From Cylindrotheca closterium (lineage: Eukaryota; Bacillariophyta; Bacillariophyceae; Bacillariales; Bacillariaceae), in assembly GCA_933822405.4 (NCBI GenBank), contig CAKOGP040002080.1, forward strand, positions 124,001 to 188,000: 64,000 nt of DNA, in the 5' to 3' direction. Shown here piece after piece: positions 12,401 through 57,001 of the stretch. Within the stretch, counting starts at the first letter, position 1. Each line of letters opens with the position of its first letter. The notes under the pieces were generated by a model that worked only from the letters and a program-made list of their open reading frames with translations, searched no databases and was not told where the DNA came from. Made by a program: the position numbers and the translations under genes.

Positions 12401-15400
12401 TTACGCTTTCTTCAAGAAACTCATAGCCACAAAGCCAACCATCGCAACTGCAGCTGCCGCTCCAGCATAAACAACTGAGGAGTCCATGCCTCCTGGAATC
12501 TCTACGGCTGTAAGTTTGACCAAGGCCTTCGCCGATGAACCACCAGCGGATCGTGAGAGTTTGATTGCATCAACCAGATCATCGTCGCTTGTAATCAAGA
12601 TTGTATCTCCTTCATCATCAATAAACTTGAATTGAATACACTTTTTGTTGATCTTGACTTTCTCAGCGAACGCATCGATCAGGCTTGATAATTTGCTATC
12701 AGATTTGACACGGTGTGTGTGCCCAGAAGGATCGACAACCTTGAACTGCAAAATAGGGGTTGATGACGATGTTCTTGTGTCACTCAAAAGCGTTATGTCA
12801 CCATCCAAGTCATGATGATCGTCTTCAGTAAACTCGAGGGTAGTTGGAATATTTCCAGGCAGTTGTGCCATGACAAATGGTGCGTCTTTTGCAACCTTGA
12901 TTGCGGGTGATGTTTTCCTGGCAGAACCCACACCCTTGACACGTACTGAACGAACGCTAACTGATTGGTTATCTGTTGCTTCATCATCAGCGATGTCCAA
13001 GGCACTGTCGAACACTGAACGCCAACCTTCGGCCCCGCCACACGAAAAAATCACGTCCATGACGTCAACTAGACCAACTACAGTTCCATCTTCTTCGCAG
13101 ACCGGCAGTGTGAGGTATTTTTCTTCGTGCATCACTTGAAGAGCCTCGAGAACTGTAATCTCGGGAGAAACAAATTCAGGCTCTGGTGTCATCACCTCAT
13201 TAACACAGGTAGTCTCAACATCCAGATCAGCTGCAACCACGCGTATCATAATGTCTTTAAACCCAAAGATTCCAACTAGATGACCATCATCAACAACCAA
13301 GGATGCCTTTCTATTTTCTGCCATGAGAAGTGCGGCACTCAGAACACTTGTCTCTGGTGTAACAACAGTTGACGGGCGATCAGATAGAATGCTTCTGAGT
13401 GTAGGCGTTGAGTTTGAACCAAGTTTTTGGCTTAATAGAGGTCCAAGCAATGCCTGCAGAGCTTCTCCGTTTCCGCTGCCTTGAAGAGCTTGATTGATCA
13501 AAACTTCTGTCGACTGGTTGGACTTCGATTTCAGCTTCTCAAGCTTCGAAATAGCATCGTTCAGGCATTTTGCAATGTCTAGGATTCCCGTGACAGCTCC
13601 TTCCTCGTCCAAAACTGGCAAATGTCGAAAGTGATTTTCAACCATGATCGTCATGGCATCCATTGCAATATCAGATTTTGACACACATTGTGGGTCAGGT
13701 GTCATTACATCTTCTACCAAGCTCGAGGTTGGATTCAGACGTTTTGCGACTACCCGTCTAGTGACATCTGTATCCGTGATGATTCCCGCCAAAGCACCTT
13801 CCTCATCAACAAGAATTGCAGCATCGCAACGCTTTGATTCCAATAGCTTACAAACATCTGACACAGTGTCTCTTGAAAGAGCAATGACTGGTCTCTTAGG
13901 TCTGAGCATCGACACTGTTCTCTCGTCCTTCGATCGCTTAGACTTTGTTGACTTGACAGTTCCTACCCGGCTGCCTACAGCGCTTCTGCGTCCACTTTGT
14001 AACGAGACTGTATCCGACAGATCGTCCATTTCCAAAGAACTACTAAATATTGATCGCCATCCTTCGGCTCCACCACACCCATAGATCACATCCATTACAT
14101 CGACCAAGCCAACAACCGTACCATCGTCCTCACAAACGGGCAGCGTCAAAAACTTGTGGTCGTGCATCGTTTGCAGTGCCTCCACAACAGTCAGGTCCGG
14201 AGATACGGCCTCTGGATTCGGCGTCATCACCTTACTGATCTCCGTGTAGTCTACAGACAACTCCTTCGCAATAACACGAGTCATCATATCCTTGAAACCA
14301 AAGATACCCACCAGCTCGCCATTATCAACGACAAGTGCAGCCTTTCTTCGCTCAGCCATCAGCATTCCAGCATCTCGAACTGATGTCTCGGGGGAAACAA
14401 CTGTACCTGGTTTCCCAGCGAGCAAGCTACGAAGAGTTGGCGCTGATTGATTCCCAAACGCCTTTGCCATCAAGGGACCAAGCAGAGCATGCAAAGCAGC
14501 AGCTTGGGCGCCCTGTGCTCCTTGTGCTGTCATCGCTTGTTGTAGGGCTACCTGTGCAGAGTCGTCAGTCTTTGATTGAGATTTCTCCAATTTGCTGATT
14601 GCGTCGTTCAAACACTTGGCAATATCCAGCAATCCAACGACACCTCCTTGCTCGTCAACAACAGGCAAGTGACGGAAGTGATTCTCGACCATCGTAGACA
14701 TCGCATCCATAGCGGCGTCGGTTGTGGATACACAAGTGGGATTCGGTGTCATGATTGCAGATACGCTGGCCGACGCAGCATTGAGATTTTTTGCCACGAG
14801 TCGACGTGTAATATCGGTATCAGTAACGATACCTGCAAGACCCCCTTCATTACTCACAACGAGAGATGCATCCCCACGCTTGCTGGCCAGCATCTGAGTG
14901 ACAGCAAGCACGCTATCATCTGTCGACGAAATCAAAGGCTTCTTGGGACGGAGCTTTGATACAGGACGAATTTCTTCAACAATAGTCTTCTTGGATTTTT
15001 TGGAACGAGTGGATCTACCGGACGTACTCCTATTCTCGCTCAAGACAGACGCAGTATCGGATAGATCTTCAAGTTCAAGTGAGCTGCCAAATATGGATCG
15101 CCATCCTTCGGCTCCACCACACCCATAGATCACATCCATTACATCGACCAAGCCAACAACCGTACCATCGTCCTCACAAACGGGCAGCGTCAAAAACTTG
15201 TGGTCGTGCATCGTTTCCAAAGCTTCCAAAGCGGTAAGGTCAGGTGATACGGCCTCTGGGCTTGGGGTCATCACAGTGCTGATCTCTGTGTAGTCTACAG
15301 ACAACTCCTTCGCAATAACACGAGTCATCATATCCTTGAAACCAAAGATACCCACCAGCTCGCCATTATCAACGACAAGTGCAGCCTTTCTTCGCTCAGC

Positions 15401-18400
15401 CATCAGCATTCCAGCATCTCGAACTGATGTCTCGGGGGAAACAACTGTACCTGGTTTCCCAGCGAGCAAGCTACGAAGAGTTGGCGCTGATTGATTCCCA
15501 AACGCCTTTGCCATCAAGGGACCAAGAAGAGCATGCAAAGCAGCAGCTTGGGCGCCCTGTGCTCCTTGTGCTGTCATCGCTTGTTGTAGGGCTACCTGTG
15601 CAGAGTCGTCAGTCTTTGATTGAGATTTCTCCAATTTGCTGATTGCATCGTTCAAACACTTGGCAATATCCAGCAATCCAACGACACCTCCTTGCTCGTC
15701 AACAACGGGCAGGTGACGGAAGTGATTCTCGACCATCGTAGACATCGCATCCATAGCGGCGTCGGTTGTGGATACACAAGTGGGATTCGGTGTCATCACC
15801 AACGAAACACTTGTAGATGCAGCATTGAGATTTTTTGCCACGAGTCGACGTGTGATATCGGTATCAGTAACGATACCTGCAAGCCCTCCTTCGTTGCTCA
15901 CAATGAGAGATGCATCACCACGCTTGCTAGCCAGCATTTGAGTGACAGCAAGCACGCTATCGTCAGTGGATGAAATCAATGGCTTCTTCGGGCGGAGTTT
16001 GGACACCGGACGAATTTCCTTGGCCACGCTCCTCTGACTTTTCTTGGAACGAGTAGACCTTCCGGAACTGCTTCGGTTGTCACTCCGCACTGATGCTGTA
16101 TCCGACAGATCGTCCATTTCCAAAGAACTATTAAATATTGATCGCCATCCTTCGGCTCCACCACACCCATAGATCACATCCATTACATCGACCAAGCCAA
16201 CAACCGTACCATCGTCCTCACAAACAGGCAGCGTCAAAAACTTGTGGTCGTGCATCGTTTGCAGTGCCTCCACAACAGTCAGGTCCGGAGATACGGCCTC
16301 TGGATTCGGCGTCATCACCTTACTGATCTCCGTGTAGTCTACAGACAACTCCTTCGCAATAACACGAGTCATCATATCCTTGAAACCAAAGATACCCACC
16401 AGCTCGCCATTATCAACGACAAGTGCAGCCTTTCTTCGCTCAGCCATCAGCATTCCAGCATCTCGAACTGATGTCTCGGGGGAAACAACTGTACCTGGTT
16501 TCCCAGCGAGCAAGCTACGAAGAGTTGGCGCTGATTGATTCCCAAACGCCTTTGCCATCAAGGGACCAAGAAGAGCATGCAAAGCAGCAGCTTGGGCGCC
16601 CTGTGCTCCTTGTGCTGTCATCGCTTGTTGTAGGGCTACCTGTGCAGAGTCGTCAGTCTTTGATTGAGATTTCTCCAATTTGCTGATTGCATCGTTCAAA
16701 CACTTGGCAATATCCAGCAATCCAACGACACCTCCTTGCTCGTCAACAACGGGCAGGTGACGGAAGTGATTCTCGACCATCGTAGACATCGCATCCATAG
16801 CGGCGTCGGTTGTGGATACACAAGTGGGATTCGGTGTCATCACCAAAGAAACACATGTAGATGCAGCATTGAGATTTTTTGCCACGAGTCGACGCGTGAT
16901 GTCTGTATCAGTGATGATTCCAGCGAGACCACCTTCGTCGCTGACGATCAACGATGCATCCCCACGCTTGCTGGCCAGCATCTGAGTGACAGCGAGTACA
17001 CTATCATCTGTGGACGAAATCAAAGGCTTCTTCGGGCGGAGTTTGGACACCGGACGAATTTCCTTGGCCACGCTGCTCTGACTTTTCTTGGAACGAGTAG
17101 ACCTTCCGGAACTGCTTCGGTTGTCACTCCGCACTGATGCTGTATCCGACAGATCGTCCATTTCCAAAGAACTACTAAATATTGATCGCCATCCTTCGGC
17201 TCCACCACACCCATAGATCACATCCATTACATCGACCAAGCCAACAACCGTACCATCGTCCTCACAAACGGGCAGTGTGAGAAATCGATTGTCGTGCATC
17301 GTTTGCAGTGCCTCCACAACAGTCAGGTCCGGAGATACGGCCTCTGGATTCGGCGTCATCACCTTACTGATCTCCGTGTAGTCTACAGACAACTCCTTCG
17401 CAATAACACGAGTCATCATATCCTTGAAACCAAAGATACCCACCAGCTCGCCATTATCAACGACAAGTGCAGCCTTTCTTCGCTCAGCCATCAGCATTCC
17501 AGCATCTCGAACTGATGTCTCGGGGGAAACAACTGTACCTGGTTTCCCAGCGAGCAAGCTACGAAGAGTTGGCGCTGATTGATTCCCAAACGCCTTTGCC
17601 ATCAAGGGACCAAGAAGAGCATGCAAAGCAGCAGCTTGGGCGCCCTGTGCTCCTTGTGCTGTCATCGCTTGTTGTAGGGCTACCTGTGCAGAGTCGTCAG
17701 TCTTTGATTGAGATTTCTCCAATTTGCTGATTGCATCGTTCAAACACTTGGCAATATCCAGCAATCCAACGACACCTCCTTGCTCGTCAACAACGGGCAG
17801 GTGACGGAAGTGATTCTCGACCATCGTAGACATCGCATCCATAGCGGCGTCGGTTGTGGATACACAAGTGGGATTCGGTGTCATCACCAACGAAACACTT
17901 GTAGATGCAGCATTGAGATTTTTTGCCACGAGTCGACGTGTGATATCGGTATCAGTAACGATACCTGCAAGCCCTCCTTCGTTGCTCACAATGAGAGATG
18001 CATCACCACGCTTGCTAGCCAGCATTTGAGTGACAGCAAGCACGCTATCGTCAGTGGATGAAATCAATGGCTTCTTCGGGCGGAGTTTGGACACCGGACG
18101 AATTTCCTTGGCCACGCTCCTCTGACTTTTCTTGGAACGAGTAGACCTTCCGGAACTGCTTCGGTTGTCACTCCGCACTGATGCTGTATCCGACAGATCG
18201 TCCATTTCCAAAGAACTATTAAATATTGATCGCCATCCTTCGGCTCCACCACACCCATAGATCACATCCATTACATCGACCAAGCCAACAACCGTACCAT
18301 CGTCCTCACAAACAGGCAGCGTCAAAAACTTGTGGTCGTGCATCGTTTGCAGTGCCTCCACAACAGTCAGGTCCGGAGATACGGCCTCTGGATTCGGCGT

Positions 18401-21400
18401 CATCACCTTACTGATCTCCGTGTAGTCTACAGACAACTCCTTCGCAATAACACGAGTCATCATATCCTTGAAACCAAAGATACCCACCAGCTCGCCATTA
18501 TCAACGACAAGTGCAGCCTTTCTTCGCTCAGCCATCAGCATTCCAGCATCTCGAACTGATGTCTCGGGGGAAACAACTGTACCTGGTTTCCCAGCGAGCA
18601 AGCTACGAAGAGTTGGCGCTGATTGATTCCCAAACGCCTTTGCCATCAAGGGACCAAGCAGAGCATGCAAAGCAGCAGCTTGGGCGCCCTGTGCTCCTTG
18701 TGCTGTCATCGCTTGTTGTAGGGCTACCTGTGCAGAGTCGTCAGTCTTTGATTGAGATTTCTCCAATTTGCTGATTGCATCGTTCAAACACTTGGCAATA
18801 TCCAGCAATCCAACGACACCTCCTTGCTCGTCAACAACGGGCAGGTGACGGAAGTGATTCTCGACCATCGTAGACATCGCATCCATAGCGGCGTCGGTTG
18901 TGGATACACAAGTGGGATTCGGTGTCATCACCAAAGAAACACTTGTAGATGCAGCATTGAGATTTTTTGCCACGAGTCGACGCGTGATGTCTGTATCAGT
19001 GATGATTCCAGCGAGACCACCTTCGTCGCTGACGATCAACGATGCATCCCCACGCTTGCTGGCCAGCATCTGAGTGACAGCGAGTACACTATCATCTGTG
19101 GACGAAATCAAAGGCTTCTTCGGGCGGAGTTTGGACACCGGACGAATTTCCTTGGCCACGCTGCTCTGACTTTTCTTGGAACGAGTAGACCTTCCGGAAC
19201 TGCTTCGGTTGTCACTCCGCACTGATGCTGTATCCGACAGATCGTCCATTTCCAAAGAACTATTAAATATTGATCGCCATCCTTCGGCTCCACCACACCC
19301 ATAGATCACATCCATTACATCGACCAAGCCAACAACCGTACCATCGTCCTCACAAACAGGCAGCGTCAAAAACTTGTGGTCGTGCATCGTTTGCAGTGCC
19401 TCCACAACAGTCAGGTCCGGAGATACGGCCTCTGGATTCGGCGTCATCACCTTACTGATCTCCGTGTAGTCTACAGACAACTCCTTCGCAATAACACGAG
19501 TCATCATATCCTTGAAACCAAAGATACCCACCAGCTCGCCATTATCAACGACAAGTGCAGCCTTTCTTCGCTCAGCCATCAGCATTCCAGCATCTCGAAC
19601 TGATGTCTCGGGGGAAACAACTGTACCTGGTTTCCCAGCGAGCAAGCTACGAAGAGTTGGCGCTGATTGATTCCCAAACGCCTTTGCCATCAAGGGACCA
19701 AGCAGAGCATGCAAAGCAGCAGCTTGGGCGCCCTGTGCTCCTTGTGCTGTCATCGCTTGTTGTAGGGCTACCTGTGCAGAGTCGTCAGTCTTTGATTGAG
19801 ATTTCTCCAATTTGCTGATTGCATCGTTCAAACACTTGGCAATATCCAGCAATCCAACGACACCTCCTTGCTCGTCAACAACGGGCAGGTGACGGAAGTG
19901 ATTCTCGACCATCGTAGACATCGCATCCATAGCGGCGTCGGTTGTGGATACACAAGTGGGATTCGGTGTCATCACCAAAGAAACACTTGTAGATGCAGCA
20001 TTGAGATTTTTTGCCACGAGTCGACGCGTGATGTCTGTATCAGTGATGATTCCAGCGAGACCACCTTCGTCGCTGACGATCAACGATGCATCCCCACGCT
20101 TGCTGGCCAGCATCTGAGTGACAGCGAGTACACTATCATCTGTGGACGAAATCAAAGGCTTCTTCGGGCGGAGTTTGGACACCGGACGAATTTCCTTGGC
20201 CACGCTGCTCTGACTTTTCTTGGAACGAGTAGACCTTCCGGAACTGCTTCGGTTGTCACTCCGCACTGATGCTGTATCCGACAGATCGTCCATTTCCAAA
20301 GAACTATTAAATATTGATCGCCATCCTTCGGCTCCACCACACCCATAGATCACATCCATTACATCGACCAAGCCAACAACCGTACCATCGTCCTCACAAA
20401 CAGGCAGCGTCAAAAACTTGTGGTCGTGCATCGTTTGCAGTGCCTCCACAACAGTCAGGTCCGGAGATACGGCCTCTGGATTCGGCGTCATCACCTTACT
20501 GATCTCCGTGTAGTCTACAGACAACTCCTTCGCAATAACACGAGTCATCATATCCTTGAAACCAAAGATACCCACCAGCTCGCCATTATCAACGACAAGT
20601 GCAGCCTTTCTTCGCTCAGCCATCAGCATTCCAGCATCTCGAACTGATGTCTCGGGGGAAACAACTGTACCTGGTTTCCCAGCGAGCAAGCTACGAAGAG
20701 TTGGCGCTGATTGATTCCCAAACGCCTTTGCCATCAAGGGACCAAGCAGAGCATGCAAAGCAGCAGCTTGGGCGCCCTGTGCTCCTTGTGCTGTCATCGC
20801 TTGTTGTAGGGCTACCTGTGCAGAGTCGTCAGTCTTTGATTGAGATTTCTCCAATTTGCTGATTGCATCGTTCAAACACTTGGCAATATCCAGCAATCCA
20901 ACGACACCTCCTTGCTCGTCAACAACGGGCAGGTGACGGAAGTGATTCTCGACCATCGTAGACATCGCATCCATAGCGGCGTCGGTTGTGGATACACAAG
21001 TGGGATTCGGTGTCATCACCAAAGAAACACTTGTAGATGCAGCATTGAGATTTTTTGCCACGAGTCGACGCGTGATGTCTGTATCAGTGATGATTCCAGC
21101 GAGACCACCTTCGTCGCTGACGATCAACGATGCATCCCCACGCTTGCTGGCCAGCATCTGAGTGACAGCGAGTACACTATCATCTGTGGACGAAATCAAA
21201 GGCTTCTTCGGGCGGAGTTTGGACACCGGACGAATTTCCTTGGCCACGCTGCTCTGACTTTTCTTGGAACGAGTAGACCTTCCGGAACTGCTTCGGTTGT
21301 CACTCCGCACTGATGCTGTATCCGACAGATCGTCCATTTCCAAAGAACTATTAAATATTGATCGCCATCCTTCGGCTCCACCACACCCATAGATCACATC

Positions 21401-24400
21401 CATTACATCGACCAAGCCAACAACCGTACCATCGTCCTCACAAACAGGCAGCGTCAAAAACTTGTGGTCGTGCATCGTTTGCAGTGCCTCCACAACAGTC
21501 AGGTCCGGAGATACGGCCTCTGGATTCGGCGTCATCACCTTACTGATCTCCGTGTAGTCTACAGACAACTCCTTCGCAATAACACGAGTCATCATATCCT
21601 TGAAACCAAAGATACCCACCAGCTCGCCATTATCAACGACAAGTGCAGCCTTTCTTCGCTCAGCCATCAGCATTCCAGCATCTCGAACTGATGTCTCGGG
21701 GGAAACAACTGTACCTGGTTTCCCAGCGAGCAAGCTACGAAGAGTTGGCGCTGATTGATTCCCAAACGCCTTTGCCATCAAGGGACCAAGAAGAGCATGC
21801 AAAGCAGCAGCTTGGGCGCCCTGTGCTCCTTGTGCTGTCATCGCTTGTTGTAGGGCTACCTGTGCAGAGTCGTCAGTCTTTGATTGAGATTTCTCCAATT
21901 TGCTGATTGCATCGTTCAAACACTTGGCAATATCCAGCAATCCAACGACACCTCCCTGTTCATCAATAACTGGCAAATGTCGGAAGTGATTCTCGACCAT
22001 TGTAGACATCGCATCCATAGCGGCGTCGGTTGTGGATACACAAGTGGGATTCGGTGTCATCACCAACGAAACACTTGTAGATGCAGCATTGAGATTTTTT
22101 GCCACGAGTCGACGCGTGATGTCTGTATCAGTGATGATTCCAGCGAGACCACCTTCGTCGCTGACGATCAACGATGCGTCACCACGCTTGCTGGCCAGCA
22201 TCTGAGTGACAGCAAGCACGCTATCATCTGTGGATGAAATCAATGGCTTCTTAGGACGAAGCTTCGACACGGGACGGCTTTCAGCCATCATGTCAAGTTT
22301 CTTGGATATTGTTTTCGTTGGGGCCTTTGAAACTTTGCTCGCCCTTGATTTCAAAGATTTCACAGATGTGAGATCGGAGACGTCATCTGTGGCATCTTTT
22401 CGGCCTAAAGGAGTCTTGGCTGCCACTACTCGAGGAGCATGGGTTGGTGTTTTGGGGACTTTTGCTCCACCAACTACTGTAGCCGATTTAACCGAAGCTC
22501 TAGACGATACATTTGGACTCTTCGAAGCCAAAACTTCGGGTGAAACTTGCTCCGGAAGCTTTTCCTTCTCTTTCGAAAGCTTTGTTTCTAATTCAGTGAT
22601 CGCCTTATCAAGAGCTTCGGCATCCGAGAAACGTTTTTCCTCAACAGCCTTCTTCATTTCGCCTTGCTTCTTCCTGATATCATTCGTAATGTCACTGATC
22701 GTAGGAAGATGGGTGCGAAGATTTTCCATAGATTCAATCAGGTTCTGAATCGCTTCAGCTTTTTTGAACTCTTTAGCTGAGACGGCGTCGTTCTGCTTCT
22801 TCTTTGTTTCCTTTATGGCTTCTTCCAAATCATGTCTCGAATCAAATTCTTTTGTTTCCCCATCGATCAGAGTGACCGAAAACGAAGATGGCGTTGATAC
22901 TGCTGGCTCCTCGGCTTCTTTCGCCTTTTCAGCTTCAAGAAGTTTCTCGACTTTTTCGAGATCAGCATGAAGCTTCTCTGCGCCTGCAAAATCTTTGTTT
23001 GCAATACATTGGTCCATTTTCTTCTTTGCTTCGGACACTTGCTCTTCAAGCTCCCCGACTGACGGGAAGAAGACGCGAAGTTTCAGACGTTCATCAAGGG
23101 ACGCCTGCAATGCCGATGCTCCCTTGAAGTCTTTCTTGGCGATTGCCTCGTCGACATTGGATTGCATCTTTCCGATTTCTTTCTCGAGATCAGCACGGGA
23201 CTCGATTCCTTCAATAACTACGCCCTGTTTTCCCTCTTCGGCTTCGCCAATTTCATCGGCTTCTCCTTCGGCTTCCTTCGCAGCAGCATACTTCGCCTTT
23301 GCTTCATCCAATTCCGTCTGGGAGGTTGCTGCACCTGCGAAGTCGCGATTCTTCACCGCCTCTGCTAGATGTGCTTCAGCTGTCTTCACCGCTTCTTTCA
23401 ACTCTTCCATTGTTGGAAGATCCTTTCGCTGCGCGATTAGCACATCAAGCTCTTCTTGCAATGGACCTGCCTCTGTGTACGATTTGCGCTTCAGCGCCTC
23501 ATCAAGGCTAATTTGGCATTTCTCAATCAGCCCTTCGAGTTTCTTCCGGGTCATGGGTTCTCTCTCATCCAAAACTTTATTGATCTCATCGCTATGATTC
23601 CGAATGAGGTAAGTGCCAATAACAATCGACAGGTTTGAGAAGTAGAAACACTTACATTTTCGCCTCAAGCATTGCAGCTGTCTTGAAGTCTTTTGCATTA
23701 ACTGCTTCATCCAATTTTGCCTTCTCAGTTTTGAGGAGACCCTTGATGTCTTGGTAAGTCATATCACAATATGGGTCTCGAATCTTTCGAGCCGTTTGGA
23801 TAGCTACACGACGTCTTTGCAAGGATTGCACTGTAATCACAGATTTTCGTTCTGCGTTATATCTCTGCACCTCAATTTTAGAACGATGGAATGACGCGAT
23901 CTTGGTCGCAGCTCTCTCGCGTTTGTATTTCTTGAGCATAACAATGCGAAATCGAGTCCAAGCCACGAGGAGCTGTGATAGGCGGCGATGCGAGACGAAC
24001 TTTCCGAACCTACCAACCGTTCGAGCTGCCGAGTGAACTCTCAGAGCGGCGAGCCTTTCCAGTTTGTCAGATAGCTCACGACGTAAAAAAATCTTAGAAT
24101 GGCCAATTTGCCAATCTGCGTCCGTTACGTTCAGACGCTTTGAAAGCACATCGACAAGTTGCTCAATACCAGCCTCGCCCTCAATTTCTGCGGGACCAAG
24201 AAGCACCGAGAAGCGATTGTAGAAACTCTGGTGGTCTTCTCGAAGGGCATAACCTTCCCTACGGATTCTGATTGCTTCCATCATTCCAGAGTATCTCAGT
24301 TGTTTCAAGATATCGCCCGCTGCGAAAGAGTTGGGGGCCTTTCTGAGGTTCGGCTTTATGCAACGAATGTAGTGGGGTTGTGTGAGTTCAAGATCTTCGA

Positions 24401-26920
24401 CAAGGGCTTGAAGTGATAGCTTGAACTGTGAAGCAACACTAAATCCTCGAATGGAAGATCGGCGGCTGTCATTCTTTTGCGTGACTTCTTGGTCATTGTT
24501 TGCACAAGAAAATACCGACTTGGCAAGCTCCACTGTCGAGGATGCTCCAAGATCTTTCAATTCGTTGGTGAGGCTCTCCATGTTGCGTTCAACAAATCCG
24601 TCAACAGTGTATTTAACCTAGATCCTTTTGTGAGAACAGACTTCAAAGAAAGAATTGCAAAAGAGCAAAATACAACAGTGCGTCGCTTACCTCTCCTGCA
24701 TAATGTACAATGATGAACGTGCGATCGTTTCCAAACTTGGGTGTAATAAAGTATTTGTGACCGTCTTTCTTTTGGGTTCCAGTTCCGCTACCAAATAGCT
24801 TGTGCAACTGGTTGACAAATTTGCCATCTTTTTCGGCAGAAGTTCCCATACCAGCAAAGGAATCATCCAATGTATTCAGAATACCTACGGTTCCCGAGCC
24901 ACCTTCAATCAGTTCGAGACAAGGGCGGTTGTCATTGAATGTAATATAAGTCCAATCAACTCCTTCGGAGGAATAAAGGTTTTGTTCCACCTCGAACAAG
25001 TGACGGTTGAAGTGGCGTTGTAACTTTTCGTTACAGTAGTTGATCAGCAACTGTTCGTATCCATTCACTTCAAAGGTTTCGAATCCATAGATATCCAAGA
25101 CACCAATGAATCCAACCTTTGTCTCACCATTGCTCTGGGAGGCAACTGTTAAAGTTTCATTGATCGATTTGACCAGCCACAAAAAGACACAAGAGTACGT
25201 CATTTTGGCAAGGGCATCACGTTTATCTTCCGCCATGGCGACAGTGGAAGGCTTCTTGATGGTCTTGCCATTGATACTCAAGTTCTTGGTCAAAATAGCT
25301 TCCTTGACTGCCTCCTGCTCCAGTCCCAGAAGCTCACAAGCCTTTTGCAAGGAAGGTAGGGTATCCTCGCACACCTTTGCAACATGCTCCTCGCCTTCTT
25401 CAAAAGTGACGTTTCCCAAATGCAAAACGGCTGCTGCCAAGCCAAAGATAGTCTGATGGTCTTCAGTAGCAAGACCAATCCGTGCCAAGCACTCTAATGT
25501 TTCCGCAAAATCGCTGGCATCCTTCTCACTGGCGACCACATTGTTTGAGCCGAGGTATCGAAAGGTTGAAGCACCACCATCCATTCCAAGTTTTGCAAGA
25601 GTCTCGGCTCCTGCTCCAGCCAGAAGTTGATAGAAAATGTGATAATTTCGTTCTCCATCAATTTGTGTGGTGATTCTGGTCTTTTCCAAAAGGTAATTGG
25701 AAATTTGAGCACCGACAATGGCACCAGTGTCGGTGCTAAAGTTGATGTGAATAAACTTTCCAAAACGCGACGAGTTGTCATTGCGAAGAGTCTGTGCATT
25801 ACCAAAGGATTCTAGTAGAGGGTTGGAAGAGAGGACTCGATCCTCCAACGAAGCGGCAATCTTTCCATCCGGTGACTTGACAACCTCATTGTCACCCTTT
25901 TTCTTTGTAATCCGTGCCAGATACTTCATGATATATTTGGTAGCCTCTGTTTTTCCAGCACCACTCTCTCCACTGATAATGATCGATTGATTCCTTGGTT
26001 CTCCAGGGGCTTGTCCAAGTTGAGCATCTCCATCCACCATGACATCATGGTCGTCATCTTCCAAATGTGGAACATTGTGGACGGAATCCATCAAATGGGT
26101 GTACGCCCGATCGGCAACTTGAAACAAGTGGGGTTCCTCCTCCGCAAAGGCATCTGCACTCCTATAACTCATCATAATTTCGTCCGAATACAAGGATTCT
26201 CCATCAAATTTTCGGATAGCTTTGTAGGGATTGATGGAAATCAAAATGGGTCCCGCGCTGGTGTAAATATCGTCTCGTTTGTACCGAACTCGCAGAGTGT
26301 GTAGTAAACTAGCTTCGCTGACATTGGCCAGATGCAAAACATCTTGCATGCCCATGTAATCGTCCGGTGCCGTCAAGGCAGACATTTGACTGACCGACTT
26401 GACCTTGTACAAGGTTCCATCCGGCGTTTTGACCAAGGCTGGTCCACTGGTAACGTCTGTGGTTTCTTCCATGGACTGTCGTTTCTTTTTGCCCTTGTTC
26501 TTTTTCTTGCCGTTTCCATTGTTATTATTATTATTATTGTTATTGTTATTATTACTGTTGTCATCTTCCTTGAGGGATTTGATAACCTTGCATGGAACAA
26601 AGAGATGCTTGGAATTCAGGAAAATGTCGTTTGGATCTTGACCTTTCTTGGACTTATTGCTGCTGTTGTTGTTGTTGCTGCCATCTTCAATCACGAGGGT
26701 TGGATCGAAAAAGTACTCGACTACGGTTTTACCAGTCACCTGCGAATCAAAGAAGAAAACAAGTTAGAAAAAGGTGATGATGCAGGGATACTACGGGGTA
26801 TGCTCTCATCATTTGTTTTGTTTGTCTGAAATATCTTACCAAATCCACCGCTTTGGCTCTACCTTTTGGGGCCTCCTTCTTTACCGACCCTCGCTTATTT
26901 GGCGTTTTGTATTGTGACAT
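12401..26920 (-). CDS. Giant myosin fused to nine 4xCBS blocks, PB1 domain and C-terminal membrane anchor
   Basis: Four exons, 26840-26920, 24691-26739, 23656-24617 and 12401-23591, join in frame to about 4760 residues. The motor has the P-loop GESGAGKT (residues 284-291), switch I NDNSSRFGKF, switch II DIYGFETFE, HYAGEV joined across intron 2 to KYTVDGF, and PHYIRCIKPN (791-800). A basic neck with IQ-like repeats follows. UVR-like hairpins (KDFxxAxxLxxxLxx) at about 1000-1400 span intron 3, which ties motor and tail into one gene. From residue 1470 come nine blocks of four CBS motifs, each resembling the whole CBS region of plant CBSCBSPB and yeast Mug70 proteins. The end is a PB1 domain (4640-4730, OPCA-like DDEGDTILITSDDDL) and a hydrophobic tail, also as in CBSCBSPB. 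A membrane-bound, possibly nucleotide-sensing motor is inferred. Confidence 0.88.
13001..13921 (-). repeat. Unit 9: diverged final copy of the 4xCBS block
   Basis: This copy starts with VSMLRPKRPVIAL, keeps the four-CBS order and the closing GGAEGWRS motif, but differs from units 1-8 at many positions throughout. Its position beside the PB1 domain matches the single block of ordinary CBSCBSPB proteins, so it is probably the founder-like copy from which the array expanded. Confidence 0.85.
13925..22276 (-). repeat. Eight tandem 1044-bp coding repeats (units 1-8), each encoding four CBS motifs
   Basis: Units start (at the codon for R of RPVSKLRP) at 22276, 21232, 20188, 19144, 18100, 17056, 16012 and 14968, an exact 1044-bp (348-residue) period. 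Units 1-7 differ by only a few substitutions; unit 8 has a more diverged inter-unit linker and some CBS substitutions. Each unit has CBS1 (GIITDTDI), CBS2 (FRHLPVVDE, DIAKCL), an Ala/Gln-rich helical linker, CBS3 (GIFGFKDM) and CBS4 (GLVDVMDV), then a Ser/Arg-rich linker. Antisense open frames recurring every 1044 bp are shadows of this array. Confidence 0.97.
26519..26560. repeat. AAT/AAC trinucleotide run encoding poly-Asn in the myosin N-terminus
   Basis: A run of ATT/GTT on the plus strand encodes about 12 consecutive Asn ahead of the motor, followed by a Lys-rich stretch. Such Asn runs are also seen in the neighbouring Hop2-like gene. Length is likely variable between alleles. Confidence 0.85.
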
Positions 26921-45005: not shown

Positions 45006-47320
45006 ATGGTCAGATTCGGCTCTAGTCTAGCTTTGGTCTCTACCATCGCTGTAGTCGAAGGTTTTTCTTCTGTTCAGCAATTCTCTTCCAGAACGCCAAG
45101 TTTTGGTCAATCTCAATTCTCTGGAACCCAATTAAATGTTGCAAGTACCGACCCCTTTCCTCTCTCTCGAAGCATCACTCCTGAAGGTTATGGATTCTCA
45201 AGCTCCATTGGACGCGTACTGAAGGAGGCTGGAAGAGAGGGTGGCTATTACAAAGCTGCATCCTCAGATATCGTGGCGGATGTAATGGACGGAATCACAA
45301 GTGGCGAAGTGGATGCAGCTCTCGTATTCGACGACTCGTCAAAGCTGTTGGGTATTTTTACTGAAACTGATTACATAAGGGTAAGAGCTAGAAGCAGTTT
45401 GAAGCTACCAAAAGGGAATCAATTTGACGAGCCTTTTCCTCACTGGATCGGTTTTTTTTTCTCACATATAATCAGTTTTCAATGAAAAGAGCCAAATCTG
45501 CAAGCAATGAAGAAGAATCGGCAAAATACCTCGTCTCGCCTGTAGTAGACTACATCACACCTTCTTCGAAGATTGTGGCACTTTCTGAAAAGGATACGGC
45601 CAATGTTGCCATTGCAGCAATGAAGCAAGCAGGTGTGCGACACATGTTGGTAGTGGACAAAGCTAGTAAGGATCGCCAAATGGTCGATGATAGTTCAGTC
45701 TTGGGTGTCATTAGCATGCTAGATGTTATGTCTTTGGTACAAAAGGATGAACGATTGAGTTTGCAAACAATGGCTAGAAAGTACCCGGGAATCTCCAACC
45801 CTTTTGATTTGATGAACGAAGAAATGAAGTCCCAAGCCAATGCTGACGCAAGCAATCCCGAGACGGCCAAGGAAGATATTATCAAATTTGGAGCTGGGCT
45901 TCTTTCCCTTGGAACTGTAGGTCTTTTCTTTTCCCAATCACAATGGTTGCACGACCATGCCGACTTGGCCATGATTGCCATCTTTATTCTTGGATACATT
46001 GGTATTATCTTTGAAGAAGTCTTCGAGTTCGACAAGGCTGCAGTCGCCCTTCTCATGAGTACTGGACTGTGGGTGACTTATGCTGATTTCTTCCAAAGTG
46101 AGGGTCTTGCGTCAGACACCGTGCTTACGCAACTGGGAGAACAGCTTTCGGAGGTTTCTGAAATCTGTTTCTTCCTTCTTGCTGCTTCAACAATTGTTGA
46201 GGTAATGGATCAACACCAAGGATTCAAGGTTGTGACCAACCAAATCAAGACTACATCGAAGAAAAGTCTCTTCTGGACTATTGGATTCTTAACATTCTTT
46301 CTATCTGCTATTCTCAACAACTTGACCGTGACCATTGTCATGTGCTCCCTATTGCGAAAATTGATTCCTCAGAACGATGATCGCAAGCTCTTTGGTGCCA
46401 TGGTAGTTGTTGCCGCAAATGCTGGGGGAGTTTGGACCCCGATTGGCGATGTGACCACCACAATGCTTTGGATCAATAACCAGCTTTCCACTATTCCAAC
46501 AGTTACGGAATTGTTCCTTCCCTCGTTTGTGTGCTTGGTCGCTTCTCTGGCCTTCTTGGTCGGTCAAGTGGAAGAAGACAGCTCGCTCGCAGACTCAGCC
46601 ATGCCAGAACCAACCGAATTGGCACCGAGAGGTAAACTGGTGTTCTGGAGTGGTATTGCGAGTCTCTTGATCGTCCCAGTGTTTGCCGAGTTGACTGGAC
46701 TTCCACCCTATTTGGCAATGTTGACTGGCCTCGGTGCAATGTGGACATTGACTGATATCATTCATATGGGCGAGGATGGTGATCAGAAATTGAAGGTCCC
46801 TGTCGCCCTTGCAAAGTTGGATACAGCAGGAATCCTTTTCTTTTTGGGCATTCTCATGAGTATTGGTGTTCTAGACAAGAGTGGTTTGTTGAAAGAACTT
46901 GCTGTATTCTTGAGTGACAACTTGCCCAGTTTGGATATCATCGCTACGGTCATTGGTATTGCATCCGCCTTGATTGATAACGTGCCTCTGGTTGCGGCGA
47001 CAATGGGTATGTATGACCTTGCCGACTATGGTACCGATGACAGGCTTTGGCAGTTGATTGCTCTATGTGCCGGAACTGGAGGATCAATCCTTGTTATCGG
47101 ATCTGCCAGTGGCGTAGCACTAATGGGACTAGAAAAGGTCGACTTCATATGGTATGCCAAGAAGGCGTCCGTTGGAGCGGCAGTGGGATACTTTGCAGGT
47201 ATTGCCACGTACTTGGCACAGAATGCTGTTTTGTCGGGCGGATTTCTTGATTTCCTACCTCAGGCCGCCGTTGCAGCTGACATGGCACAGAGTGTAGCTT
47301 CCACTGGAATTGTAATGTAA
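45006..47320 (+). CDS. Plastid NhaD-type Na+/H+ antiporter with N-terminal CBS pair
   Basis: Exons 45006-45380 and 45476-47320 join to 739 residues. The leader (LALVSTIAVVEGFSSVQQF) has a signal peptide and GF-S plastid-type site. Residues about 75-240 form a CBS pair: DAALVFDDSSKLLGIFTETDYI before the intron, then VSPVVDYITPSSKIVAL, GVRHMLVVDKA and VLGVISMLDVMSLV. The transporter follows with about 12 hydrophobic segments and NhaD signatures: AILNNLTVTIVMCSLLRKL, NAGGVWTPIGDVTTTMLW, FFLGILMSIGVLDKSGLL, ASALIDNVPLVAATMGMY and GTGGSILVIGSASGVALMG. Plant NHD1 is a plastid-envelope member that exports Na+. The CBS pair suggests regulation by adenine nucleotides, which is an inference. Confidence 0.9.
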
Positions 47321-54602: not shown

Positions 54603-57001
54603 TCACTGGCTAGTGCTTTGGGATCTGTTGACACTGTTGTCAATGGTTCCAGTGAAATCGACGCGTGATGATCTAGAAGGAAGCAAACAGAAAAAGACAA
54701 TGGGTTAGAAATAGAAAGATAAAGAGGGTTGCTTCCGGCTTCCAGAAACCGCTGAACTTACTTTGACTCTTGTGCGCTCTCTGGTATGCCTGGTTTTGAA
54801 CCAGGCATTCCAAAATTAGATGCTGTATTGCTTGACAAACCATTTCCTTCGCTTTGTCCGAACAAGTCTACTTCAGTCTCCGAGATGGGATTGAAAGCTC
54901 TCGACGAACCTTGGCCAATTCCTGAAGAGGTTGGTATAGCAAATCCAGAGATGTAAGTGCGACTTTCTTCGATGCTGTCGCGACTCCCTACAGCCCTGGA
55001 GGCCACGTCATGAATATTTGGCATTACATTCCCCTTTCCCACCATGCATTTATACAAGATGGGGCCAACGATCAATAAAATGACTCCGGCGTTGTTCAAG
55101 AACGCGTAGCTGGCACGGACCACGTACGAAATGGCCACACTGTCACCAGACAAAGAAAGCATGATGACCGCCACCATCAAGAGCTGGATGGAGTTGAAAA
55201 GCGATACTGCAACCATTCGAGAGTCGCTGATTTGATGAAATTTTCTCGTTTGCCAGGCTAAGATGTTTCCATAGATAAGTACTGCCAAATGAAGCAGAAT
55301 AAGGACTACTGGATAAACCCAGAAGTTTTCTCCGTTTGAGCTGCATTCTCCTCGCGCTTGCAGAATTGTACCTTCAAAGTCTCGACTAACAACTGAGATG
55401 GTCCAATGAAAAGGGTCCTGTACTGCCCATACTGTGAGCACGATTGCGTCCAAGACGAGGCCTCCTACAATGAATCCAGAAACGTCACGAACCGTCACAA
55501 TAGTACGACGGATTGCTGCCCTTTCTCCAATGCCTATCACAGCCTTGACTCTAGCCATTTTTGCAACCAAGGTTGTTGTTGTCATCATTTGACCCATTCC
55601 AAGCAGCCAGGTCCAAGCCATGCAGGATCGATCAAGGTTTTGTTTCGAGTATCCAAGATTATCTCTTGACATAAAAATGATCGAAGTTGTGTCCACCAGA
55701 GCGCCAACCAAGATGAGAGTAAGGAAGAAAGGCTGAGCAATGGAAACAACCTTCTTCTTTCTGTACATGTATAGCAGAGCGAGTCCCAAAACACAGAGTG
55801 CATAGTTGATAGCCGCAACAACATAACCAACAAGAAACAGAGCCTCTGGAGTAAAGAGACAATCTACGTATTCACAAGGATCGTCCGCATCTTCAATATT
55901 CTTGAGCCCATTGGTTCGTTCGTGTTGTAGTGTCCATGTGCACAATCGATCAGCCACATATGCTTCTCCCAGGAACTCGACAAGCATAGTTTCCCACGTA
56001 TCAGTCGTTGCAATGGGGTTTGGCGTGAATCGAATAATAGTTGTTAGATTTCCAGTCGAAAGGTACTCTATCGCGGAATCAACGGCGAGTTCTGCTTCCA
56101 GAAAAGGAGACTGAATCGTTGTTCCATACTGTTTTCCTTGACCCAAAATGTCACGGTGACCATTGCACACTGTTCCCACAAGAGTGACAGCATCCTCGCC
56201 ATCAAGTCTCCCTCTATCATTCAATGCCTCGTAGGCTCCAATCAATATATTATCATCCATTGCATATACTCCATGAATCTCTTGACCGGTGGTCTTTAGC
56301 TCATCCATCAGGTGTATCATGGCTTCGTAGGCAGGTTGATTTCCCCAGTCCAAAGGAAGATCATGAGTAATTTCGATACTCGAATCTTCAATGGACTGAC
56401 GAAATGCAGCAATCGATAGATGATATCCCCCGTATGATCCTGGATAACCAAGAGCAACAACTTTTGGATTCGAGAGTCCCCTTTCCTCTATCAAAGAGTC
56501 TATCATCATGAGACCAGCGTTACTCGCTCGCAGCGCGTCACTGGGACCAGCGTATCCCAACAAGTGATCCCACTCCCAAGCTGATTCTTCACTGGGGAGT
56601 TGATTCAATTGAATGATTGGTACACCATGTGCATCGTGGAGTTCCTTCATCAGTTGCCGAGATGGTATGTCAACTGGCCAGATGCAGTATATTCTTGGCT
56701 GCACCTCGCTGTCAATTGCTTCTTGCAAGACTAGAAGCGACTTTTCGGAATTAAAGTCGCCAATTTCGCGAATTTCCAGTGATACATTATACCGCCGTAC
56801 CGAAGAAAGAAGCCCATTGTGAAGCCCATTGGGATAGGCTGTGGACCGATCGGGAATGATAGCCACAATATCTGGTGCTGAAGAAGATGTTTCACTCTGC
56901 GCTCTGGTGGAACAGACGCAGACCTGGACCAGTAGCAAAAGGAACAGAATTGTGGATGAGGATGCGCGGACGCAGTTTGATCCAAATCCTGAAAGACACA
57001 T
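54603..57001 (-). CDS. Class C (GABA-B-like) GPCR with bacterial sugar-binding-protein-like ectodomain
   Basis: Main exon 54762-57001 and a short last exon 54603-54672 (stop overlapping a GTGAGT) give 769 residues; reading through the first donor would stop at 54758. A signal peptide (TILFLLLLVQVCVCSTRAQ) precedes a type I periplasmic-binding fold (about 44-345): DIVAIIPDRSTAYPNG, GVPIIQLNQLP, VVALGYPGSYGGYHLS, GVYAMDDNILIGAYEAL and AVTLVGTVCNGH, closest to ribose/sugar-binding proteins. Seven hydrophobic helices follow (about 390-640). The third contains SCMAWTWLLGMG and TTLVAKMARVKAV, as in GABA-B receptors (conserved Cys and K-x-x-RV). There is no Cys-rich linker domain, also GABA-B-like. 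The cytosolic tail is Ser/Gly rich. Signalling through G proteins is expected; ligand unknown. Confidence 0.85.

Follow-up and report, generated by a model that had tools for sequence, protein, structure and literature searches.

A class-29 myosin with a long CBS array, a PB1 domain and a putative tail anchor in the diatom Cylindrotheca closterium

The window analyzed here, a stretch of 64,000 nucleotides (nt) at positions 124001-188000 of contig G000:C526 in the 47.6-Mb genome of Cylindrotheca closterium, carries on its minus strand (26920-12401) a class-XXIX (class-29) myosin gene. The diatom is raphid and stands close to Nitzschia and Pseudo-nitzschia, and the array of CBS motifs in this myosin is unusually long. 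The protein is best read as an organelle motor held by a tail anchor, probably on mitochondria, with a tail that would form a string of adenylate-sensor-like discs; we place the probability of this reading, in which membrane insertion, nucleotide binding and regulation of the motor are inferred, at about 0.58. The tail design was already published in 2007, and the remaining interest lies in the length of the array, its dynamics and the testable sensor idea. The array is a clear case of recent repeat copying inside a gene, and class-29 myosins are spread across stramenopiles. If a unit binds adenosine mono-, di- or triphosphate (AMP, ADP or ATP) and the tail goes to mitochondria, the motor would be able to sense how much energy is available at the cargo that it carries.

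Gene model and class-29 membership

The gene consists of four exons (26840-26920, 24691-26739, 23656-24617 and 12401-23591, all on the minus strand) separated by GT-AG introns of 100, 73 and 64 nt, which join in phase to encode a protein of 4760 amino acids (aa). Exon 1 opens with the start codon at 26920, three codons downstream of an in-frame TAG. Exon 2 encodes an N-terminal extension and most of the motor, exon 3 the end of the motor (to about 24081), an IQ-like neck and the start of the UVR-like repeats, and exon 4 the remaining tail and the stop codon. The extension that precedes the motor contains Asn-rich runs (26500-26680), with a trinucleotide tandem repeat at 26518-26554. The resulting domain order is motor, IQ-like neck, seven UVR-like repeats, nine four-CBS units, PB1 and a C-terminal hydrophobic segment.

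Pfam matches the myosin motor on both exon 2 (expectation value (E) 1.5e-156) and exon 3 (E 6.3e-38), and the motor is intact, with P-loop, switch I, switch II and relay motifs (exon 2) and an SH1 motif. The neck comprises three to four degenerate IQ-like stretches recognized by eye in exon 3; no Pfam IQ match was obtained in the window at E<=10, and relatives P0028 and P0006 have IQ matches below the cut-off. The seven UVR-like helical repeats (22571-23732, minus strand) were used to build a hidden Markov model, which detects 6-8 weak copies in nine diatom relatives and 1-4 in ten other stramenopiles. The UVR label is weak, as the Pfam matches (E 0.019 in the window and 6.2e-4 in P0018) both fall below the cut-off; a precomputed UVR label is carried by two relatives, P0088 and P0133. 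Pfam matches to LuxQ-periplasm, JHY, OM14_C, VP30, TraM and Rpf1_C inside P0001 were set aside as spurious, since no single stretch passes; LuxQ and JHY probably pass the whole-protein cut-off only through summing over repeats.

The first UVR-like repeat is cut by intron 3 (23592-23655) and its halves fit in frame, so motor and tail very probably belong to one gene. It is highly improbable that a myosin and a separate CBS-PB1 gene have been wrongly joined here, although the gene model at this locus is drawn from genomic sequence alone: besides the reunited repeat, 56 relatives hold motor and CBS units within one protein, and a single transcript open reading frame (ORF) from MMETSP (P0018), labelled complete and 2679 aa long, contains the motor, 12 CBS motifs and a C-terminal hydrophobic segment, with a PB1 match just below the Pfam cut-off. 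Frame, relatives and transcript ORF together led to rejection of the two-gene explanation and point to one transcript. The initial annotation, which had proposed a single gene of four in-phase exons fusing motor to tail, with UVR-like repeats split by the third intron, was borne out on these points.

Homologues were collected in two protein searches (55 matches among 2065 candidates scored; the best 120 of 143), giving 166 different listed homologues, of which 56 combine motor and CBS units and two are named 'myosin 29'. Where a source is named, it is a diatom (centric or pennate), an oomycete, Tribonema, Ectocarpus or Discosporangium, among others; P0255, labelled Sphagnum, was excluded because by sequence it resembles a stramenopile contaminant. 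A third search (best 120 of 200) returned shorter CBS-PB1 proteins, mostly metagenomic, which are probably for the most part pieces of class-29-type tails. A tree of 30 motors (22 chosen from the 56 CBS-tailed proteins, seven other myosins of the genome and the window motor) placed the CBS-tailed motors, including both 'myosin 29' rows, on one side of a branch with a Shimodaira-Hasegawa-like approximate likelihood ratio of 99. The window motor lies beside those of Nitzschia and Pseudo-nitzschia (70-71% identity), which points to a raphid diatom probably belonging to or close to Bacillariaceae, and its class is assigned through the rows named 'myosin 29' instead of the reference sequences of the 2007 paper.

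In the published description of class-XXIX myosins, three IQ motifs and short coiled-coil regions come together with as many as 18 CBS domains, a PB1 domain and a transmembrane domain at the C-terminus (Odronitz & Kollmar 2007, PMC2375034, available portion). The window protein agrees in its motor, many CBS motifs, PB1 and putative C-terminal transmembrane segment; its IQ-like neck and UVR-like helical stretch may correspond to the IQ motifs and coiled coils. Because that paper defines the class by this very tail, categorical novelty fails, and the statement in the initial annotation that no described myosin has such a tail was mistaken; its interpretation as a whole is partly supported. Diatom myosins are still assigned to this class in work from 2024 that covered 309 of them in 52 species and whose accessible text states that no diatom myosin had been functionally characterized before it (PMC11420354). 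A term search of the main texts of PMC5583752 and PMC3942036, in the portions available, found neither CBS nor PB1.

The 36 CBS motifs of the window exceed both the published number (PMC2375034, in its accessible part) and the at most five units, about 20 motifs, of the 166 listed homologues. Single-motif counting would fit Phytophthora nicotianae, in which Pfam finds 17 motifs (E<=0.5 each) and the unit model 19. Plant CBS-PB1 proteins (CBSCBSPB), like fungal Mug70, hold four CBS motifs in two pairs. A 2009 plant paper names the plant proteins 'two CBS domain' proteins in its available text (PMC2694836), so counting by pairs is possible; had the 2007 authors done so, their 18 would equal the 36 motifs of the window and the difference would vanish (PMC2375034).

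As the initial annotation had noticed, the tail resembles plant CBSCBSPB and fungal Mug70 proteins, in which CBS domains are likewise followed by PB1 (PMC7051960 and PMC2694836, both in part), whereas those proteins have one unit and no motor. PMC13054138, whose accessible text offers no more than a list of CBSCBSPB phosphopeptides, was left aside. A PB1 search of the genome returned only the window gene and an NBR1-like ORF, with no free-standing CBS-PB1 copy seen from which the tail could have originated in this genome, and that origin was set aside. The NBR1-like ORF (L025:853-2202) has PB1 followed by two stretches that look by eye like ZZ-type fingers. Locus L001 holds a separate two-CBS ORF, recognized by eye, and L002 has no listed ORF of at least 300 aa.

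Structure and evolution of the CBS array

The array (12920-22276, minus strand) consists of nine units of four CBS motifs each, spaced at 348-349 aa. A Pfam profile search of the tail matched CBS with E 1.1e-298 and found 28 of the 36 motifs singly at E<=0.001, in agreement with the initially annotated tail of 36 CBS motifs and PB1. Units 1-8 are alike (93-100% protein identity), and unit 9 is about 62% identical. Linkers of about 40 residues between the units are rich in Ser and Arg (13 Ser of 40 in unit 2) and may be targets of phosphorylation.

The nine units of the window compare with five in the next highest of 170 scanned rows (three ORFs of the window and its spliced protein added to the 166 listed homologues). 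Many of the rows are fragments, and arrays in other genomes may have been collapsed. The first homologue search admitted candidates up to 1.75 times the query length, about 6600 aa. The window array is thus the longest among the scanned rows, as distinct from the longest existing, and nearly twice as long as that of any relative found. Across the 57 motor-bearing proteins (window plus 56), the number of units varies from about two to nine.

Within the array, no difference separates units 2 and 3 across 1044 nt, and units 4 and 6 differ from both by 1-3 nt. Between unit 9 and the other units, 457-495 aligned positions differ when gaps are included. For its first 240 codon columns unit 5 cannot be told from unit 7, and after that it lies 10 nt from unit 2 versus 70 from unit 7; in columns 181-240, no codon of units 1-8 differs from unit 2. 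Gene conversion or unequal exchange would be expected to leave such a mosaic. Since two units are identical, their precise number depends on the assembly being correct, and arrays of other species could equally be collapsed. It is nonetheless unlikely that the length is an assembly artefact concealing a true gene of about four or five units, because six clearly different unit kinds (1, 5, 7, 8, 9 and the group 2/3/4/6) form a clean mosaic that would make fewer than six units hard to explain.

The contrast between inner units and last unit extends beyond the window. Inner units are closer to each other than to the last unit in 15 of 19 proteins with at least three units; the exceptions are Seminavis, Epithemia, Amphora and Discosporangium, and in the four oomycetes the margin is 0.01-0.03. 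Near-identical inner units (0.88-1.00), which indicate recent amplification or homogenization, occur in the window, Cyclostephanos, N. inconspicua, Tribonema and P0049. When 83 units of 21 selected proteins are placed in one tree, oomycete units, by contrast, cluster by position and not by species, which argues that the oomycete array is old and stable.

Predicted sensor-like fold, putative membrane anchor and competing readings

Structure prediction was applied to unit 9 and arranges its four CBS motifs in one disc resembling AMPK gamma and archaeal MJ1225, a likeness that makes the adenylate-sensor reading more likely. The alignments with these proteins give 17-21% identity, and, unlike AMPK gamma, the window tail has no known association with a kinase complex. 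The GhxT/SxxD signature of CBS1 is kept in 83/83 units examined, and site residues drift in CBS3 and CBS4.

The PB1 domain (12518-12748, minus strand; Pfam E 2.1e-9, over the cut-off) has a conserved acidic motif and a conserved N-terminal lysine. Column counts in an alignment of 40 rows show D435 and D439 to be invariant and K394 to be lysine in 39 of 40. These residues presumably form the two interaction faces, which look conserved in line with the oligomerization surface suggested at the outset, and this conservation would allow head-to-tail PB1 contacts.

The C-terminal hydrophobic segment (12422-12478, minus strand), a putative tail anchor, is modelled as a helix with a 19-residue mean Kyte-Doolittle hydropathy of 1.96, consistent with the membrane-type end of the initial annotation. 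It ends six residues from the C-terminus, leaving the short basic tail SFLKKA (12404-12421, minus strand), which fits the plant dibasic rule for mitochondrial tail anchors. As given in the accessible text of its source, this rule asks for a single C-terminal transmembrane segment, a tail of 3-8 residues and two basic residues not followed by Glu, and was derived with Arabidopsis proteins in BY-2 cells (PMC4154396). A C-terminal hydrophobic segment, by a threshold of our choosing, is present in 52 of the 57 motor-bearing proteins; it is absent from P0036, P0041, P0052 (just below the threshold), P0057 and P0138. The dibasic rule is satisfied by 49 of the 52, the window included, compared with 7.5% of shuffled C-termini, where the control scored the last six residues and the real test up to eight. 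The misses are P0039, P0017 and P0019 (the last of which, from its code Psemu1, we take to be Pseudo-nitzschia multiseries), and two of these are close relatives of the window.

Taken together, these features suggest a mechanism in which the C-terminal helix would insert post-translationally into the membrane of an organelle, with the outer membrane of mitochondria as the most likely target, and the anchored motor would pull the organelle along actin. The tail would comprise nine AMPK-gamma-like discs, strung on flexible linkers that are rich in serine and about 40 residues long; every disc would keep at least one adenine-nucleotide-type site, so that the tail could report AMP, ADP and ATP near the organelle, and PB1 may link tails head-to-tail. 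Inner units would multiply by unequal exchange or gene conversion, with the membrane-proximal unit staying apart. Animal myosin-19 may work alike, being an actin motor attached to mitochondria, but it is of a different class and, in the sources accessible in part, binds the outer-membrane proteins Miro1/2 instead of using an anchor of its own. Myosin-19 is not known to carry CBS or PB1. A bolder extension, which we consider unlikely, is a myosin with its own multi-site fuel gauge: local AMP/ATP would set tether length or motor activity, moving organelles according to energy state. At least nine, perhaps 27, sites for adenine nucleotides would lie between the motor and its anchor on mitochondria, and evolution would have tuned their sensitivity as unequal exchange gained or lost identical discs.

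Several observations weigh against the reading of an energy-sensing mitochondrial motor. In CBS2, 81 of 83 units carry lysine where Asp is usual, and the CBS4 Asp is kept in just 52 of 81; a parallel of the CBS2 lysine with an arginine in CBS2 of AMPK gamma, for which a literature search gave nothing useful, was given no weight. The likeness of a modelled four-CBS disc to AMPK gamma would by itself show no binding. The dibasic count reflects the tail rule alone, apart from the hydropathy and signal-peptide filters of the source paper, the 52 anchor proteins are kin and so do not amount to 52 independent tests, and a rule from plants may or may not transfer to diatoms. The literature searches, which covered largely papers outside subscription, found no functional study of a class-29 myosin, no localization or ligand data for any of them, and no data of any sort on the gene in the window. 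A separate history of the last unit also remains tentative. A tree built from 55 units, of which four come from Tribonema and the other 51 from diatoms or from rows with no name, groups the last units of the window, two Nitzschia and Pseudo-nitzschia in one clade (98/95) and window units 1-8 in their own (100/100), but the tree program warned of long branches at the last-unit clade, and unit 9 is 0.51-0.59 identical to the last units of its three nearest relatives versus 0.58-0.60 to their inner units; as raw identity fails to bear out a separate history of unit 9, confidence in the overall reading is slightly lowered.

The main rival to the sensor reading gives the array a chiefly mechanical role, as a long tether or spacer of variable length that connects motor and membrane and keeps the CBS fold with little sensing. 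The Ser/Arg-rich linkers, the variable unit number, the drifting residues of CBS3 and CBS4 and the lysine of CBS2 all suit such a tether, yet a pure spacer needs no nucleotide site, and the CBS1 signature is kept throughout. Most inner-unit pairs, moreover, appear to be under purifying selection: the ratio of nonsynonymous to synonymous substitution rates (dN/dS) is 0.013-0.207 in 22 of 28 pairs. The remaining six, three without synonymous change and three (unit 6 versus units 2, 3 and 4) at 0.32-0.64 on 2-3 changes, count on the other side, as does the distortion of such ratios by gene conversion. A mainly mechanical role seems doubtful to us, and sensing and tethering can hold together. Somewhat more credible, as a possibility still second to mitochondria, is that the anchor serves another membrane (peroxisome, plastid envelope, endoplasmic reticulum (ER) or secretory vesicles) and that the motor moves that cargo. 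Several dibasic tail-anchored proteins have also been reported at peroxisomes or chloroplasts (PMC4154396, in its accessible text), which counts against an exclusively mitochondrial address. A mean transmembrane hydropathy of 2.3 is compatible with the ER. The same anchor type occurs in oomycetes, which lack plastids, so the plastid envelope is the least likely of these destinations.

Neighbouring genes

A second, different myosin (38% motor identity) lies on the opposite strand about 10-12 kb before the window start (G000:C526:111932-113917, plus strand), and three related myosin genes, which form one group in the motor tree, occur within 60 kb elsewhere in the genome (G000:C340:195103-254142). 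Inside the window, the plus strand carries an ORF for a JmjC/cupin-type hydroxylase (1654-2967) and one for a CitMHS-type transporter (45482-47320) whose N-terminus weakly matches CBS (E 4.1e-4, below the cut-off). The minus-strand ORF at 54758-57001 combines a class C seven-transmembrane receptor domain with a periplasmic-binding-type domain.
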